A stretch of 64,000 nt of DNA from Methanohalophilus mahii DSM 5219 (GTDB lineage Archaea > Halobacteriota > Methanosarcinia > Methanosarcinales > Methanosarcinaceae). The stretch lies in the NCBI RefSeq assembly GCF_000025865.1, contig NC_014002.1:248001-312000 (forward strand), in the 5' to 3' direction. Shown piece after piece: positions 48,456 through 58,475 of the stretch. The translations under genes and the position numbers were made by a program. The first letter of the stretch is position 1, and every line of letters starts with the position of its first letter. Below the pieces are notes generated by a model. That model did not search any database. It was not told the origin of the DNA and was given only the letters and a program-made list of their open reading frames with translations.

Positions 48456-50372
48456 TCAGTTTTCCATGATTTCTTTGATAAGAGTTCCCTGGCCTATTTT
48501 GTCCATAATATTCCCCAATCTTTCTTTACCGGGGTTTGTGCGGTATTTTATGAATGCTCTAGCTATATCATTGATCGTCTCTATGATTTCTTCCTCGTCA
48601 CAGAATGATTTGATTAATACTCCCTCTGTAGGACGGCGTGCACCATTACCTCCTATCCATAAAGAGTAACCGCGTTTATCTTCCAGGGCAGCTTCATGGG
48701 GACATCCTCTGACACACCATCCACAATTTCCACAAAGATCCCGGTTTATAACTGCTTTTCCTCCTTCTATGGATATAGCATTAAATTTACATAGTTCGGT
48801 ACATCTTCCACAGCCAGTGCACTTTGTTTCATCAATGACAGGCATGAGCTGGCCCATTATACCTATGTCATGGTCTCTTACGCGGACACAACTATTTGGA
48901 CAGCCTGCGACACCTACTTTCATTTTATGTGGCGTCAATTTCTGGGCAAAATGCATTGTAAGTTTGTTGGCAAGTTCTTTTGTACTCACCAGGCCTTCGG
49001 GGCAATAATCCATTCCCGGGCATGCTGTAGCATATCCCATTCCGATTGTCTTCAATCCCGCGTCGTATACCTCTGCCATAAGATCATCAATGTTTCTTCC
49101 AGGCACACCTTGGATCTCGATACTTTTCCTTGCAGTCATTTCCAGTGTACCGTCACCATATTTTTCGGCAAGTTCTGCAACTTTTCCCAGATATTCGTGT
49201 GTGGTAATCCCTGAATCGGTTTTTATTTTGACAAAGTTGGTTCCATTTATTTCTGGCCTTACACCCGGATAGTCACGAACCCAGTAGTAGCTGACTTTTT
49301 TTTCTGAATCGAGACGTTTGTCAAGTTCATGACGGAACTTTCTGATTTTGAATTGTGCCAGTTCTTTTGTCATTTCAATATCTACTTCATTTGATATCTC
49401 AATATAACCCGCTTCATTTGCATCATTAAGCAATTTCAATCCTTTGGCATTGCGGGCTATCAATGTAGTCCACCCCTTTGAAGAACCGGAGCTTCCTGCA
49501 GAAATATCAGCGACCTTTGATACTGCGTCCCTGCAAATCTTACAGCCATCCCAAACACAATCCTGAAGGTCCTTCAGGGAGATTTCAATATTTTTCTCAT
49601 CCGTGGTTATAATCATTTCATCAAGTTGAATGGAATATTTTTTAATATCGTTAAGTTTGATTCCCTGTTTTTCCAGGAAATCGGATAACTTGTGATAATT
49701 GAAATTTTCCATGCAAAAGAGGCCAATTACATATTCAATTTTAGGAGTATTGGCACTTTCCCCATCCATTCCTTTTTCGACAGGGTGCACGTTAAGGCCA
49801 TTGAAATATTGCATTCTACGGACGCCATAGGTCTGACATGGAGTTCCTACGACTGCTACTTTGTTGAAATTATCTTTTTGATCCCTTAGGGCGGATAATA
49901 CAGGCACTGTTGAATATTTGGCTCCCTGGGATGAAGTTATATCTTCCCTTTCTCCAATTATGTTTGCTGCAGGTTTGGCAAAACCGGCTGTTGTTATGGC
50001 TCCGTCTATGAGCCCATTATCAATACAGTATGCAATAAGGGAAGAGACGGCTCCTCCGTCCTGTCCTTTTTTGATGAGATCCTCATCTGTTGCTCTTGCA
50101 GACACTATTTTTTCGTATTGACCCAACAAGCTGGGGGGTTTTGCCTTAAAATCAAAAGCATTAAGTGCAATCCGGGAAGCATCGGTCATTACCCGTTGGC
50201 ATACATCTTTGCATGCTCCTTCTCCATTCCTGTAGCACTCGTCTTTAAGGTGCGGTCCGTTTTCATCAAAACGTATAAGGTCATATGGACAAATAGCAGC
50301 ACATGCACCACAAAGGGTACACATGCCTGTATCTACAATATTATCTTTTAAGAACCATTTTTTATCTGCCAT
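48456..50372 (-). CDS. fsr: F420-dependent sulfite reductase-like protein (Fsr)
   Basis: Fsr combines an F420H2-oxidising domain with a siroheme sulfite reductase. Here the N-terminal ferredoxin (CTLCGACAAICP) and FrhB/FpoF-like F420 domain (GQDGGAVSSLIAYC, VVGTPCQTYGVRR) cover about 1-335. The C-terminal sulfite reductase half has the siroheme/[4Fe-4S] cysteines ACPGMDYC and GCPNSC around an inserted 2[4Fe-4S] ferredoxin (CTGCGRCTELC, CGNCGWCVRGC). At 638 residues it is full length. Known Fsr reduces sulfite to sulfide, protecting methyl-CoM reductase; methylotrophic members form a divergent group whose substrate is less certain. Confidence 0.88.
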   Translation of the reverse strand: MADKKWFLKDNIVDTGMCTLCGACAAICPYDLIRFDENGPHLKDECYRNGEGACKDVCQRVMTDASRIALNAFDFKAKPPSLLGQYEKIVSARATDEDLIKKGQDGGAVSSLIAYCIDNGLIDGAITTAGFAKPAANIIGEREDITSSQGAKYSTVPVLSALRDQKDNFNKVAVVGTPCQTYGVRRMQYFNGLNVHPVEKGMDGESANTPKIEYVIGLFCMENFNYHKLSDFLEKQGIKLNDIKKYSIQLDEMIITTDEKNIEISLKDLQDCVWDGCKICRDAVSKVADISAGSSGSSKGWTTLIARNAKGLKLLNDANEAGYIEISNEVDIEMTKELAQFKIRKFRHELDKRLDSEKKVSYYWVRDYPGVRPEINGTNFVKIKTDSGITTHEYLGKVAELAEKYGDGTLEMTARKSIEIQGVPGRNIDDLMAEVYDAGLKTIGMGYATACPGMDYCPEGLVSTKELANKLTMHFAQKLTPHKMKVGVAGCPNSCVRVRDHDIGIMGQLMPVIDETKCTGCGRCTELCKFNAISIEGGKAVINRDLCGNCGWCVRGCPHEAALEDKRGYSLWIGGNGARRPTEGVLIKSFCDEEEIIETINDIARAFIKYRTNPGKERLGNIMDKIGQGTLIKEIMEN

Positions 50373-50381
50373 ATGATCACA

Positions 50382-50747
50382 TCAGTGTTCGTGATCATGG
50401 CCACTGCAGGAGTTGTTTGCACCAGCTTGCTCGAGCCTGTCATTTTTCCAGGCTTCTATGGCATCATTTACTTTTCCCTGTGCCCCCACGAAAACTTTGA
50501 TGCTGAACTGGTCGAACATCTGAACGGCTTTCCATCCCAGGCCTCCACAGAGCATGGTTTCAACTCCTACATTTGCGAGTAATTCGGGAGGTAATCCAAC
50601 ACCGCCCATATGCTCACTGGTATTCTCCAGAACATCCACCTTTCCAGTTTCACTGTCGTATATTGTGTAATAAGGGACTTTGCCAAAGTGCTGGCCTACG
50701 GGTGAATCTATTCCACTATTCTCGGTTGCCGGTATACATACTTTCAT
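50382..50747 (-). CDS. NifX/NifB-C-type cofactor-binding protein
   Basis: This 121-residue protein of the dinitrogenase iron-molybdenum cofactor-binding family has VCIPATENSGIDSPVGQHFGKV at its start (shown here only as the family mark SPVGQHFG) and GLGWKAVQMFDQFSIKVFVG. It ends in a histidine-rich tail, SCSGHDHEH, that may bind metal. The family carries Fe-S or FeMo-co precursors, but stand-alone members occur without nitrogenase. It overlaps the following paralogue's stop and precedes the fsr gene by nine bases. Confidence 0.85.
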   Translation of the reverse strand: MKVCIPATENSGIDSPVGQHFGKVPYYTIYDSETGKVDVLENTSEHMGGVGLPPELLANVGVETMLCGGLGWKAVQMFDQFSIKVFVGAQGKVNDAIEAWKNDRLEQAGANNSCSGHDHEH

Positions 50748-51136
50748 TTTTTTCCTCCTCTTCCCTGTCCGCGACCCATACCTGCATGTGCTTTGGCAGT
50801 TGGACCTGATACTTTTCCCAGAGTTCCGTTATTATACTGTTCAATTGCTTCTTTTACTGATACGCCAGAAGTGGTTACGACTTCTATCCCTGCTGTGGAA
50901 AGGACTTCGTAGGCATTAGGTCCCACATTGCCAGTGATCAAAACATCTGCCTTCATTTTTGCGACTTCCTGGGCAGCCTGTATGCCTGCACCACCTGTAG
51001 CGCCTGCTGCAGGGTTCCCTACTGCTTCAAATTCTCCGTTCTCAGTGTCGGCAATTATGAAGTAAGGAGTTCTGCCAAAACGAGTTTCGATCTCTGAGTC
51101 CGATGTATTATTTTTGGAAGTTATACAGATTTTCAT
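50744..51136 (-). CDS. NifX/NifB-C-type cofactor-binding protein, first gene of the operon
   Basis: This 130-residue paralogue of the next gene has ETRFGRTPYFIIAD and VLITGNVGPNAYEVLSTAG, the family core, and a glycine/arginine/lysine-rich tail (MGRGQGRGGKK) rather than a histidine tail. It probably carries an Fe-S or metal cluster. It leads the eight-gene operon. Its leader can fold into a hairpin that includes the ribosome-binding site, and it overlaps the second NifX-type gene by four bases. Confidence 0.85.
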   Translation of the reverse strand: MKICITSKNNTSDSEIETRFGRTPYFIIADTENGEFEAVGNPAAGATGGAGIQAAQEVAKMKADVLITGNVGPNAYEVLSTAGIEVVTTSGVSVKEAIEQYNNGTLGKVSGPTAKAHAGMGRGQGRGGKK

Positions 51137-51140
51137 GATT

Positions 51141-51182
51141 TTTCCCTCTCAATATACTATATTAATCACATGAGAGAGGAAA
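51141..51182 (-). promoter_or_regulatory. Leader hairpin covering the ribosome-binding site of the redox operon
   Basis: On the minus strand TTTCCTCTCTCA (51182-51171) pairs with TGAGAGGGAAA (51151-51141), 11 pairs with one bulged T and a 19-base loop. The second arm contains GAGAGGG, the only ribosome-binding site before the ATG at 51136. The DNA symmetry could equally be an operator. Confidence 0.45.
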
Positions 51183-51205
51183 TACTTATAGTTTTCTCAT
51201 AAAGG

Positions 51206-51220
51206 TATTATATAAAATCT
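51206..51220 (-). promoter_or_regulatory. TATA box of the redox operon
   Basis: AGATTTTATATAATA on the minus strand lies about 70 bases before the first ATG. A start 25 bases downstream would fall near 51183, at the foot of the leader hairpin. Confidence 0.55.
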
Positions 51221-51309
51221 CTTATGCTACATTCACGTTATCTGTGTTATTTAAAGAGAATATCAGAAAAATGCTGCAGTAAAGGTAGTTACTTTTGGAA
51301 AACAAATTG

Positions 51310-51337
51310 GGATAAAAAAGAGAGAAAAAGACTGGAC
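51310..51337 (-). terminator. T-rich terminator after mtbA
   Basis: The minus strand reads CTTTTTCTCTCTTTTTTATC directly after the mtbA stop. Oligo-T tracts without a stem are common archaeal terminators. Confidence 0.55.
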
Positions 51338-52366
51338 TTAGTATGTCCAGTTCTTTGCTGCTTCGATCATTGCCTGAAGGTTCTGGGTTGGAGTCTTGCT
51401 CACAATACCGCAACCCGGTGCGAGAAGCTGTACTCCTGCATCGAGAACGTTCTTGGATTCTTCCTTGACGCCTTCGACATTGTCTTCGCCCTGGTTCCAG
51501 AGGACACTTACAGGGTCGAGGTTACCTAAGATGAGGGCCTTGTCCACATTTTCAACTGCTGCTGCAGGGTCGACATTCTGGTCTACACTGATTGCGTCTA
51601 CACCGCAGGTTTCCATGATCGCAAGTCCGTTTGTTGTGTCTCCGCAGATGTGGAGAATGGATGGTATGCCCTTCTCATGGAGTGCTTCAACAATCTTCTG
51701 GTGGAATGGAACTACGAAAGTCTTGTAGAAATCAGCACCAATAAGCTGGTAGCTGGCTGTTGGATCAATGATTGCAAATGTGTCGGCACCGTTCTCGACC
51801 TGTTTGAGGGCGTACTGGGTGCAGAACTCAGTGGTGAATTCCATGAGTTTGAGACCAAATTCCTGGTCGGTCATGATGTTCATGAACCAGGAGTCACCGT
51901 TAAGGTGCTGTGCGAGGGAGAAGGGTCCGATCATGCTGCCGATGATTGGAAGTTCGTCGCCGTATTTGTCTGAGAGGATCTTGACTGCCTCACATACGTT
52001 TCCGATCCTGCCGTCTTCGATGTTGTACCCTTCGAATTGTTCGAGATCTTCGGCCTTGCTGACAACGTGGCTGATTACGGATGGCTGCTGTTCCTTGGTA
52101 CTTGGCTTGATTCCGCATCCGAAAAATTCTGCTTCTGCTGTGATGTCGAAAGGAACACGCACTGCTTCAAATCCTACAACAGTGTGTCCTGCTTCTGCCA
52201 GTGCTGCCATTTTTACAGGGTCTTCATGAGCTTCTGGCCAGTAAGCACCTACTGCATCCATCTGTTCTACTGTTCCTGTCTGGGTGGCACAGATAGCAGG
52301 CATCCTGTCTACTTCTTTACCTTCAAATACGCGTGCTAATCTCTCTTTGGGTGTATATTCAACCAT
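51338..52366 (-). CDS. mtbA: Methylcobamide:CoM methyltransferase MtbA
   Basis: The enzyme moves the methyl group from a methylated corrinoid protein to coenzyme M, the common end of methylamine-dependent methanogenesis. The 342-residue protein is of the uroporphyrinogen-decarboxylase fold, with zinc ligands in LHICGDT and APGCGIV. MtbA (methylamine) is favoured over MtaA (methanol) because the pyrrolysine genes lie directly upstream. It has its own TATA-like AGATATATATATGC (52423-52436) and ribosome-binding site AAGGAG, so it is probably transcribed separately from pylD. Confidence 0.83.
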
Positions 52367-52507
52367 AACCTTTACTCCTTAAAACTTATTTCTATTCTAA
52401 AAGGTAATCTGGCTACGCATTTAGCATATATATATCTTTTCATGTTGAATTTTCCATTAAAAAAACGCTATCAATATACCTGTTTTTGTCTTGGGGCTCT
52501 CTTTGCC

Positions 52508-53287
52508 TTACATAACAGCATAAATCATTGAAGCCACGCCAATCATCAGAGGTTCCATTACCAGATCGATTTCGTTCTTTTTCCCGATGTCTTCAGGTAA
52601 ACCACAGGGGATTCCAGGTGTGGATACGAGGCATCTTTCTGCCACCATGCCTTCTGAGATCGTGTTGGGGTTTGGTGTAGCCTCCAGGACCATGGAAAAC
52701 TTGTGTTTTTCTTCGGGGTCATAGGGTATGATGCCCAGTTCCTTGCGCGCTTTTTCCAGAGTTTCCCGATTTGGGTCATAGGCATACACATCGAAATCCT
52801 TTTTTACAAGATGTTGTGCCCCTGCATAACCCACTCTTCCCAGGCCGATTACAAGTATATCCTTCGAATCGGCATATTTGTAACGGGAGGCAATCTCCGC
52901 GTAAACCACACCGGTGCATACATGATTGGTTGCAATTTTGCCGTTTCTCATATTATGCGCAATAAAAATGTGGTCATCTGCCATCAATATTATATCGGCA
53001 TCACTGGAAACAGCTTCATAGTACCCGGTAACATCGGGATGCTCGGTTATATCACCATCAAGACCGAAATATTCGGTTATCGTAAGCAGGGATGACGAAA
53101 AATTGCTAATGATCCCATTGCCGGAAGTTATAGGCACAATCCCTACTTTTTCTCCGTCAAGAGTGGTGCTGTATATTTGTTTGCATATGTCAGCAATGTC
53201 CATTCCGGTTGCTTTTTTGATAGTATTGTTATTGTACTCAAGCTGTTTTGTAAGTCCTTCCAGATCTTGTGGTGTAAGTAGTGCCAT
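52508..53287 (-). CDS. pylD: Pyrrolysine biosynthesis protein PylD
   Basis: The last enzyme of pyrrolysine synthesis oxidises L-lysine-N-epsilon-3R-methyl-D-ornithine with NAD so that the pyrroline ring closes. The 259-residue protein has the Rossmann motif VIGLGRVGYAGAQ near residues 147-159 and the family N-terminus MALLTPQDLEGL. A strong GGAGGA ribosome-binding site precedes the ATG. It follows pylC by 13 bases. Confidence 0.96.
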   Translation of the reverse strand: MALLTPQDLEGLTKQLEYNNNTIKKATGMDIADICKQIYSTTLDGEKVGIVPITSGNGIISNFSSSLLTITEYFGLDGDITEHPDVTGYYEAVSSDADIILMADDHIFIAHNMRNGKIATNHVCTGVVYAEIASRYKYADSKDILVIGLGRVGYAGAQHLVKKDFDVYAYDPNRETLEKARKELGIIPYDPEEKHKFSMVLEATPNPNTISEGMVAERCLVSTPGIPCGLPEDIGKKNEIDLVMEPLMIGVASMIYAVM

Positions 53288-53300
53288 ATTTATCCTCCTT

Positions 53301-54383
53301 TTACTGCTTCATATCGGATTTGATGAGTTGAATTGCTTTTTTTCTTTTGTAACACATCTCATGCCGGGTAGCGCCAGTGCATATCAGGGTATAGGTTTGT
53401 CTTTTTCCCCTGCATTTGAATATTTCCAACCCGTTTGATTCATGGAATAGCCGGTAGTCATCACCGTCTGAAAGAACATGTTCCCCAACAGGGATAAGTT
53501 TCCCATCGACTGCCATCAGGTGCTCATAGTTACATTGTTTACCAACAGGAAGAGGTTTGTTATCCTTTATTTTTCCTGCAAAACTTCCCATTAGCCATTC
53601 GAGCAGGTTTACACCACCACTGTGATATACTACGGTAGGTGTCTGGCTGGGAAAACGTGCATCAATCTCAATAACCCGGATTCCTTCGGGGGAGAGTATT
53701 GCTTCCACATCCATGATTCCTTTAAGGTATAGATTGCTGGCCAGCAGATGTGTGATCTCCCTGAAAATTGGGTCAGTCTCCATCGGGGTGACCCGATGGC
53801 AATCATGTTCCTGGTCAATATGTACCTGTGTCTGCTGACCGATCATGAAATTGTTCCCGTCTCCCACCACTTCCAGTGAAACTACTGGTCCGGGTACATA
53901 TTCTTCAATGACCATCGAATCATCAATGTTTGCCAGTTCACTGTCGTTGTCAATTATGCGTGCCCCCTTACTGCTGCTCATGCAGGGGGGTTTCACAAAA
54001 TAAGGAGGATTTTGGGGTTTTTCCGAAGGAATGGGTATATCTATCGATTTGAAATATTCCTTTGAACGTTTTTTGTCCATGCTGGTATCATAAGCGGTAA
54101 AATCGAAAAGAAGGGGGCAATGTAGTTCTGGTTCTATTTTTTTCAAAAAGAGAAGGGTGTCAAGGTTTTCATTTGTCGGGATTATAGCATCTGAGTGGCG
54201 GGATAATTCTATGAGCCTTTCCGGCCTTTCTGTAATATCAAAGCAAAAATGTTCATCCACACAATTATGTATCAGTGGCTTGTTTTTCCTGTCGACCAGA
54301 TGTACCCGAATCCCGGATTTTCTGGCAAGATAAGCCACTTCGAAGCCCTGCAGTTTGCCCCCAATCAGACATATCGTTTTCAT
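53301..54383 (-). CDS. pylC: Pyrrolysine biosynthesis protein PylC
   Basis: This ATP-grasp ligase joins 3R-methyl-D-ornithine to the epsilon-amine of lysine. The 360-residue protein starts ICLIGGKLQGFEVAYLARK and has ATP-grasp motifs YFVKPPCMSSSKGA, VIEEYVPGPVVSLEV and IEIDARFPSQTPTVVYHSGG. The ATG begins one base after the pylB amber stop, so its expression depends on ribosomes ending or passing that codon. Confidence 0.96.
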   Translation of the reverse strand: MKTICLIGGKLQGFEVAYLARKSGIRVHLVDRKNKPLIHNCVDEHFCFDITERPERLIELSRHSDAIIPTNENLDTLLFLKKIEPELHCPLLFDFTAYDTSMDKKRSKEYFKSIDIPIPSEKPQNPPYFVKPPCMSSSKGARIIDNDSELANIDDSMVIEEYVPGPVVSLEVVGDGNNFMIGQQTQVHIDQEHDCHRVTPMETDPIFREITHLLASNLYLKGIMDVEAILSPEGIRVIEIDARFPSQTPTVVYHSGGVNLLEWLMGSFAGKIKDNKPLPVGKQCNYEHLMAVDGKLIPVGEHVLSDGDDYRLFHESNGLEIFKCRGKRQTYTLICTGATRHEMCYKRKKAIQLIKSDMKQ

Positions 54384-54384
54384 T

Positions 54385-56663
<2,279 letters not shown>

Positions 56664-56753
56664 TTACTCCTGCTATAGGGGCGACTTCTGATATCTACAT
56701 TTGTTGAGGTGTCTAATTTTGCAACATATCCAGACCGTCACTTTCTATTTTAC

Positions 56754-56825
56754 TGGCGGAAACCCCGGGAATCTAACCCGGCTGAATGGATCTAGAGTCC
56801 ATTTGATCTACCTGATCAGGTTTCC
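56754..56825 (-). tRNA. pylT: tRNA-Pyl, anticodon CUA
   Basis: The 72-base sequence runs from GGAAACC at 56825 to GGTTTCCGCCA ending at 56754, so the CCA end is encoded. The anticodon CTA is at 56795-56793 in a seven-base loop CTCTAGA. The anticodon stem has six pairs (AATGGA with TCCATT), and the T arm has GCCGGGTTAGATTCCCGG. The six-pair stem and short D-loop are the unusual marks of tRNA-Pyl. It reads UAG codons. TATA-like sequence lies near 56855-56864. pylS follows 97 bases downstream, so the two are probably cotranscribed. Confidence 0.97.
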
Positions 56826-56954
56826 ACAGGATAGTCTGCTTTATTTCTTTGAATTTGTATTTAACTTTATGGGTTTATGTTGGGGAATAACAGTTTCCTA
56901 TCATAAATTATATTAATAATAAGTTCGCTGCTAAAAATTGCTTTATATAACTTC

Positions 56955-58475
56955 ATGCATCTTGAAAAACACCAATTAAAGCCGGCAGATGATAATCATA
57001 TGCTCCCCTTCAAAGAAAATATACTTGAGTTAATTCCTTCAACCCATGGCGGACTTATCCGGAAGACTTCACAACAATATTCCATTCCCCTGTCCGATAT
57101 AGTGGATTTTAGTGCCAGTTTGAATCCTCTGGGCAGCCCCTTTGATAATCCTGAATGGGGTATGGACCTGCAGGATCTGTTTGCCACTTCCTTTGAAAGA
57201 ATGGGGCAATATCCTGATAATCGCTATCTTGAATATAGAACTGCAGCGGCCTCTTTTGTAGGAGGGGGTGCAGGTGTTGTAAATGTTGTCCCCGGTAATG
57301 GTTCATCGGAAATCATCAGGCTTGTCGCCGGCTGTATTCTCAATGAAGGGGATGAGGTAATGATTCCCCAGCCTACCTTTGCTGAATATGAACAGCAATG
57401 CAGGGTGGCCGGTGCGAAAATTGTGTATTATCCGGTAGGATCCCTGCTTTCCATCTCTGCGGACGCGCTGGAATCGGTACGTATTCTTTTTGTGTGCAAT
57501 CCCAACAATCCTACCGGTAAGTTGCTTGCAAGAGAAGATGTCCTGCGCCTTGCACGGCTTTGTGCAGAAACAGATACTCTGCTTTTTGTTGATGAGGCTT
57601 TTATTGAACTATCCGATATATCAAGTACTGTAGTTGATGTTGCCATCTCTAATGATCATGTTTTCGTAATGAGGTCACTTACCAAATCATTTGCACTGCC
57701 GGGTATACGTATGGGATTTGGTGTTGCATCTGAGGCAATGGCTGAAAAATTGAATACTGCCCGTCTGCCCTGGAATATGGGTTCTCTTGCCGAAGGGGTG
57801 GGATGCGCTTTAATGGAGATGGAGGGTGGTATGGAATCACCATTCATGGATATGTCCCGCCAGAAGATAACCCAATACAGGGATTATCTCGTAGAGAGGC
57901 TGAATGATATCTATGGTTTCCATCCTCATTCAAGTTCTGTAAATTATATACTTGTGGATATCTCCGAGCTCCTTATGGATTCTGTAGAACTTACAGAAAG
58001 ACTTGCAAGACATGGTGTGCTTATCAGGGATTGCAGTTCTTTCCCGCTGATGGAAAAAGATTATATCCGTCTTGCAGTGCGGCCTCCTGAAGAAACGGAT
58101 ATACTGATTCATACTATCGGAGAGGTCCTTACAGAATCCGGCAAGGATTATGCCGAGGAAAAACTGAAGGAAACCATCAAAGATGCTTCTTGCGGATGTT
58201 CTTCAAGCCGCAATACCTGTGAGTACTATCCCTGTCATTTCGAAGGGCAGGATTGCACTTTCTGTTTCTGCCCCTTCTACCCATGCGAAGATACGCGCAC
58301 CGGGGGTAAATGGATAGATAGCACTACAGGCAGCAGGGTCTGGAGCTGTGAAGATTGTGTGCTTGTCCATAATTCGGATGTTGTGCACAAGATGCTTGAC
58401 ATTCTCATGGAGGATGGTGGTACTGACATCAGTCTCAAAAAAGCCTGGGATGAAGTGATACATGTCAGTTTATAA
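56955..58475 (+). CDS. cobD: Threonine-phosphate decarboxylase-like protein with C-terminal cysteine-rich domain
   Basis: The PLP-dependent decarboxylase makes aminopropanol phosphate for the nucleotide loop of cobamides, which methylamine metabolism needs in quantity. Residues about 30-400 are the aminotransferase fold: DFSASLNPLGSP, VDEAFIEL and the PLP lysine in SLTKSFALPG. Residues about 415-506 hold a small cysteine-rich domain (CGCSSSRNTCEYYPC, CTFCFCPFYPC, SCEDCVLVH), a known fusion in methanogens, probably metal-binding. At 506 residues it is longer than plain CobD. It diverges from pylT. Confidence 0.88.
   Translation: MHLEKHQLKPADDNHMLPFKENILELIPSTHGGLIRKTSQQYSIPLSDIVDFSASLNPLGSPFDNPEWGMDLQDLFATSFERMGQYPDNRYLEYRTAAASFVGGGAGVVNVVPGNGSSEIIRLVAGCILNEGDEVMIPQPTFAEYEQQCRVAGAKIVYYPVGSLLSISADALESVRILFVCNPNNPTGKLLAREDVLRLARLCAETDTLLFVDEAFIELSDISSTVVDVAISNDHVFVMRSLTKSFALPGIRMGFGVASEAMAEKLNTARLPWNMGSLAEGVGCALMEMEGGMESPFMDMSRQKITQYRDYLVERLNDIYGFHPHSSSVNYILVDISELLMDSVELTERLARHGVLIRDCSSFPLMEKDYIRLAVRPPEETDILIHTIGEVLTESGKDYAEEKLKETIKDASCGCSSSRNTCEYYPCHFEGQDCTFCFCPFYPCEDTRTGGKWIDSTTGSRVWSCEDCVLVHNSDVVHKMLDILMEDGGTDISLKKAWDEVIHVSL

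Follow-up and report, generated by a model that had tools for sequence, protein, structure and literature searches.

The use of a stop codon as a level sensor is known from prfB, the gene of release factor RF2, which is autoregulated through an in-frame UGA of its own that senses how much of the factor is present; this stop lies early in the gene, and the alternative to termination is a +1 frameshift. The selenophosphate synthetase SelD/SPS2 can itself be a selenoprotein, in which selenocysteine replaces an active-site residue. For the code treated as a whole, Kivenson et al. are said to have described, in 2025, archaea in which all TAG codons are read as pyrrolysine (Pyl). Comparison of these systems with the pylB gene of Methanohalophilus mahii, which ends in an amber codon, brings out likeness and difference. 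As in prfB, a stop codon in a decoding-factor gene is proposed to serve as the sensor, but the pylB stop is terminal and the alternative is a read-through that would uncouple the next gene. As in SelD/SPS2, an enzyme that helps to make an amino acid encoded by a stop codon has that very codon in its own gene, but Pyl would be located at the old C-terminus of PylB, followed by a tail predicted to be unstructured. As in the archaea of Kivenson et al., TAG is almost absent as a stop, here in M. mahii and in the genus designated g7 below.

Coupling of neighboring genes by termination and reinitiation provides the second point of comparison. In Haloferax volcanii coupling is seen in a native gene pair spaced by +1, a gap of 13 nt cuts reinitiation by 60% and one of 22 nt abolishes it (PMC10666635), while the share of the Shine-Dalgarno (SD) sequence in coupling varies in Haloferax and Escherichia coli (PMC6728339). 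The genes pylB and pylC are arranged likewise, with stop and start one base apart on one strand, the +1 gap being among the native pairs tested there. The difference is that the pylB stop can be decoded by the product of its own pathway, so that any coupling of pylC could be graded by Pyl-tRNA.

The amber stop of pylB is itself already in print. The section "Why Use Pyl?" of Rother and Krzycki (2010; PMC2933860) treats the same codon of the same gene, from four species, as a plain UAG stop; pylB ends in TAG in M. mazei, M. acetivorans and M. burtonii, and in TAA in M. barkeri. The same text reports that M. acetivorans pylB works in E. coli with TAA, and that M. acetivorans decodes some UAG as Pyl, with 20–30% read-through in an amber reporter. 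Newly compared here is the retention of the codon against the genome trend; relative to that section, the conservation test, the genome-wide contrast and the regulatory proposal belong to the present analysis. The feedback proposal for this stop was not found in the accessible portions of the open-licence literature, including PMC3941956, PMC1242214, PMC8211752, PMC11363022, PMC8318568, PMC8225853 and PMC3017947.

The locus lies in a window of 64,000 nucleotides of M. mahii DSM 5219, the whole stretch of DNA that was analyzed and to which positions refer unless a genome is named. All pyl genes are on the minus strand, in the order pylT-pylS-pylB-pylC-pylD. The tRNA-Pyl gene pylT, with anticodon CTA, was located by ARAGORN (56754..56825). 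It is followed by pylS (55443..56657; pyrrolysyl-tRNA synthetase, 404 aa, TGA stop, above the cut-off of NCBIfam NF007083) and by pylB (54385..55446; methylornithine synthase, which acts first in pyrrolysine synthesis; 353 aa), whose GTG start overlaps the pylS end. Assignment of PylB is given by this gene order together with a score of 522.7 bits against NCBIfam TIGR03910, above the curated cut-off of 348.2, and by a match to PDB 3t7v (PylB; E 1.5e-142). Next come pylC (53301..54383; 3-methylornithine–lysine ligase, 360 aa, TAA stop), matching NCBIfam TIGR03909 with 447.6 bits for a cut-off of 248.3, and pylD (52508..53287; 259 aa, TAA stop, above the cut-off of NCBIfam TIGR03911), which is preceded by its own upstream AAGGAGGA, a motif identified by eye. 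The machinery for reading UAG as pyrrolysine (tRNA-Pyl, PylS and PylBCD) is thus present in M. mahii.

The junction reads GGA AGG TAG A ATG AAA ACG on the minus strand. The first-pass annotation had taken the stop of pylB to be TAG one base ahead of the pylC ATG, and had calculated that PylB would gain pyrrolysine plus 39 residues if charged tRNA-Pyl read this codon; direct reading of the sequence confirms the coordinates and the length of the possible extension. The amber stop occupies 54385..54387, the single spacer base is the A at 54384, and the pylC start occupies 54381..54383. Reading TAG as Pyl gives O354 and exactly 39 further residues, in an open frame (54268..54384, minus strand) that overlaps the 5' end of pylC and terminates at the TAA at 54265..54267, inside pylC. 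A possible SD-like site for pylC, GGGAAGG, was seen by eye within the pylB end (54388..54394). A hairpin is predicted at 54280–54420 (minus strand; z −1.82), pairing the pylB end with the pylC start and leaving TAG and ATG in the loop; judged by eye, its arms fail outside close Methanohalophilus species. A PYLIS-like element 3' of the pylB stop was ruled out, as positions 50000–58000 of the window gave no Rfam match and the first 100 nt downstream of the stop show no stronger folding in the genera with TAG than in the others.

Comparison across the family defines how widely this junction occurs. We examined 111 genomes, of which 98 gave a PylB row and 95 intact rows were kept. G046, G075 and G099, with pylB frameshifted or gapped, were excluded from the tests (the pylB end of G075, identical to L153, is also TAG); the remaining 13 of the 111 gave no match (6) or weak paralogue matches only (7), and 27 further named loci, mostly duplicates of genomes already in the set, were kept out of the counts. 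The one-base gap is found in seven genera, g1 (Methanohalophilus), g3, g4, g5, g7 (which we take to be Methanococcoides), g12 (Methanosalsum) and g13 (Methanosarcina). Among their 51 intact genomes the pylB–pylC gap is exactly +1 without exception, and the pylB stop is TAG in 49, including 8/8 Methanohalophilus; it is TAA in the other two (G078 and G071). The other 44 intact rows have TGA (34), TAA (8) or TAG (2), mostly with an ATGA overlap of pylB and pylC, as in the Methanolobus-like genera, where this overlap stands in place of the amber stop.

As a tentative reading, we favor a terminal UAG of pylB that is selectively kept as a Pyl-sensitive stop and couples the output of PylC, possibly also of PylB, to charged tRNA-Pyl. 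When Pyl-tRNA is scarce, the release factor would win at UAG and the ribosome, one base away, would reinitiate at pylC. When it is plentiful, a share of the ribosomes would insert Pyl and cross the pylC start in the other frame. Ribosomes that decode the UAG as Pyl should no longer be available to pylC, because their next in-frame stop comes 14–42 codons past the TAG in all 51 genomes (39 in M. mahii). Read-through would then lower the coupling of pylC and yield a PylB with an unstructured, Pyl-containing tail; more Pyl-tRNA would mean less PylC, which amounts to negative feedback on Pyl synthesis. The codon, its position one base before pylC, its retention against the genome trend and, in one clade, a read-through frame that stays open are observed and speak for this reading; the TAA of M. 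barkeri and of two of the 51 genomes, and the Methanosarcina extension, which is short and shows no lowered divergence, speak against it. The read-through at this UAG, the loss of coupling and the feedback effect we infer. The broader statement, that Pyl limits its own synthesis through the last pylB codon by uncoupling pylC in up to seven methanogen genera, with this codon retained as almost every other amber stop was lost, is a shade more doubtful still.

Coupling by termination and reinitiation is plausible for pylB–pylC because archaeal coupling works at a +1 gap (PMC10666635), and the geometry of such a pair, with the next start at +1 on the same strand, is present in 51/51 genomes. In Methanosarcina (for example at L133, L143 and L144) the pylC start one base past the pylB stop is TTG in 13/23 genomes, CTG in 5/23 and ATG in 5/23, and these weak starts fit a dependence of pylC on coupling. 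On the other side, pylC may not depend on termination at pylB, because it has a possible SD site of its own and the role of SD in coupling varies. The retention of the codon in nearly all relatives with this junction, in genomes where amber stops are otherwise rare, suggests that the cell may sense its own pyrrolysine through the pylB stop. If true, the genetic code itself would here carry a feedback loop, and the conserved amber codon between two genes of Pyl biosynthesis would be a directly testable sensor, accessible by a one-base change. M. barkeri (TAA) and M. acetivorans (TAG) offer a natural experiment. The question also matters for moving pylBCD between hosts, because the behavior of the native TAG would depend on whether Pyl is present.

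One alternative holds that the tail is itself the point. UAG would be read routinely as Pyl in these TAG-poor genomes, and PylB would use Pyl and a C-terminal extension of 39–42 residues for localization, stability or partner binding, TAG being a sense codon and not a switch. We consider this unlikely, although several observations on the overlapping frame agree with it. Methanohalophilus, g3 and g7 form one supported clade of 20 genomes in the tree, and in all 20 the frame stays open up to a fixed position, with the first TAA or TGA at codon 39 in 8/8 Methanohalophilus and at codon 42 in 12/12 genomes of g3 and g7. For a stop to occur in this frame, pylC must have a T as third codon base ahead of a codon starting with AA or GA. 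Such a T is found in this clade before 0/117 AA/GA codons (pylC residues 2–38) and before 150/440 other codons (residues 2–39), and the genera with the ATGA overlap have it before 64/225 AA/GA codons at residues 2–39. By columns, 5/5 AA/GA columns are free of T, against 7/19 within the stretch in other contexts and 3/38 downstream; this column-level signal is modest, and part of the pylC 5' end is T-poor anyway. A Fisher test of the open frame was set aside as circular, the frame being defined by its own first stop, and we rely on the same-site comparison with the ATGA genera and on the column counts.

Synonymous divergence was measured as codon differences at identical residues, for pylC residues 2–39 relative to downstream. 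The ratio is 0.66–0.86 in the clade of g1, g3 and g7 (five comparisons); it is not lowered in Methanosarcina (1.02 and 1.10) or in g10, presumably a Methanolobus-like genus (0.98 and 1.00), and it is also lowered, to 0.83 on ten pairs, in g11, a genus without the amber-stop junction. The open frame and the lowered codon differences therefore point, with moderate weight, to an extension that may be translated and under constraint in the clade of g1, g3 and g7, although the frame there overlaps pylC. In Methanosarcina we found no sign of a translated, constrained extension, the ratios being as above and the extension only 14–23 codons long there and in the relatives of the genus, with a variable end point, which a functional tail would not predict. 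The same holds for the AlphaFold2 model (24 sequences, mean pLDDT 80.2), in which residues 353–393 have pLDDT <50 and the tail is predicted to be unstructured, and for its sequence, which is mostly dictated by pylC. On the favorable side, TAG is nearly absent as a true stop in g1, g3 and g7, an M. mahii MFS transporter carries an in-frame TAG at a site that is TGG in five relatives, and the M. mahii genome paper suggests Pyl in citrate synthase (PMC3017947). Against it, a TAA-terminated PylB is functional in E. coli, and the M. barkeri gene itself ends in TAA (PMC2933860).

A second alternative is ordinary retention, in which an old TAG stop without function, at which UAG mostly terminates, has been slow to change. 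Its use as a stop in Rother and Krzycki (2010; PMC2933860), the shared ancestry of the genomes and the two TAA exceptions among the 51 are in keeping with this view, which we nevertheless regard as improbable. The stops of pylS, pylC and pylD in the 51 genomes are TAA or TGA, with a single TAG among 136 readable ends. On a tree built from PylS, PylB and PylC, parsimony gives 2 changes of the pylB stop versus 9 for pylS (51 rows), 7 for pylC (50 rows) and 9 for pylD (35 rows). A three-state stop model was fitted to these three controls, with TAG at the root and an equilibrium share of TAG of 2%. At the fitted control rate, simulation leaves a mean of 10/51 TAG tips, and at least 49 TAG tips were reached in 0/4000 runs, so that the pylB stop is conserved beyond the neutral expectation. 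With the rate set to its lower confidence limit, P = 0.0003 (0.0040 with equal codon frequencies); at half of that limit P = 0.03, and at one fifth P = 0.33, which is not unusual. The 51 genomes share ancestry and belong to a small number of clades, so that the retention represents a handful of long lineages and not 49 events.

Random variation of the stop among close relatives was the outcome that, according to the first-pass annotation, would speak against a feedback device. From the 2 changes versus 7–9 and the simulations it follows that the stop does not vary at random, with TAG in 8/8 Methanohalophilus and in 49/51 genomes with the same junction. The selection signal shown by this comparison across genomes is that of a TAG apparently kept by selection. 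Of the proposed device, the conserved TAG and a plausible +1 coupling thus stand. A longer PylB and a change in PylC would be consequences of the arrangement, a functional Pyl-containing tail would explain the conservation as well, and the device is missing in many Pyl-using lineages.

The genome-wide use of TAG bears on retention as well. The counts of gene ends come from a simple ORF caller, used in place of a published gene finder, on 464 kb of the 2.01 Mb of M. mahii and on 60–120 kb of each other genome. Stretches of 20 kb around pylB (TAG at 16/183 ends in Methanosarcina, 4/81 in Methanohalophilus and 2/49 in g5) were not used, because they are by construction rich in the TAGs of pylB and of methylamine methyltransferases. 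TAG ends 6/406 called genes in M. mahii, 0/217 in g7 (three genomes), 4/215 in Methanosarcina (three genomes), 1/43 in g5 and 2/53 in g12. TAG is hence strongly disfavored in the very lineages that keep it in pylB. In g10, where pylB ends in TGA, it is present at 7/61 gene ends of the one genome sampled. Among the six M. mahii cases are pylB, what is presumably a dimethylamine methyltransferase (recognized by eye), and an MFS gene interrupted by TAG; two of the six have TGA 0–4 codons later, and one has a 61-codon extension. Two other TAG-ending genes, named by eye, served as controls, and both lose the codon: a Ppx/GppA-like gene with TAG in one genome keeps it in 3/29 readable ends, and an ABC ATPase, likewise with TAG in one genome, keeps it in 3/23, and in 1/5 within Methanohalophilus.

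Two of the amber codons met in these counts deserve separate description. The MFS-type transporter (by eye; M. mahii G000 C1:1011158-1012297, minus strand, L117/L316) has at the site of its in-frame TAG a TGG (Trp) codon in five Methanohalophilus relatives and a Ser codon in two, so that the TAG is either decoded as Pyl or disrupts the gene. In Methanosalsum (G073, L173:9798-11051, plus strand), a gene ends in TAG and its frame continues for 330 codons into the next gene. We take the first of these to be hemA-like and the second hemB-like, and amber read-through would yield a fused protein.

The remaining alternative, which explains the conserved G of TAG by something other than Pyl (start-site context, RNA structure, or slow termination at UAG favoring reinitiation), has the one-base gap common to all 51 genomes, the weak Methanosarcina starts, at which context may matter, and the hairpin predicted around the M. 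mahii junction (z −1.82) on its side; we give it little credence, since the 12 gene pairs with a +1 gap in the gene-end samples include pylB as the only one with TAG, the other 11/11 ending in TAA or TGA, since neither the base following TAG nor the start codon is constant, and since folding downstream of the stop is no stronger in the genera with TAG (mean z −0.48 versus −0.86 in the others). The use of TAA or TGA by the other +1 pairs also rules out an SD reason for the pylB TAG. Retention of the TAG as pylC coding from an upstream start was ruled out too, because in several species the pylC frame is already closed three codons ahead of the start.

Outside the seven genera an amber pylB stop occurs at lower frequency. 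TAG was the stop in 4/5 of the first distant loci (L148–L152), but the wider sets, with TAG in 7/30 loci of Methanomassiliicoccales (L184–L213) and in 7/27 true PylB loci of bacteria (L174, L175, L177 and L214–L237), ruled out a universally amber pylB stop; these counts omit L148–L152, L176 and L178, which are repeat genomes, and L179–L183, which are not PylB. Four loci of Methanomassiliicoccales (L205, L206, L209 and L210) present, by eye, TAG, one base and an apparent pylC start, which is ATG in three and ACG in one; this junction outside Methanosarcinaceae possibly arose separately. In a Syntrophomonadaceae MAG (L148/L177), the pylB TAG is followed at once by TGA, so that read-through would add Pyl only.
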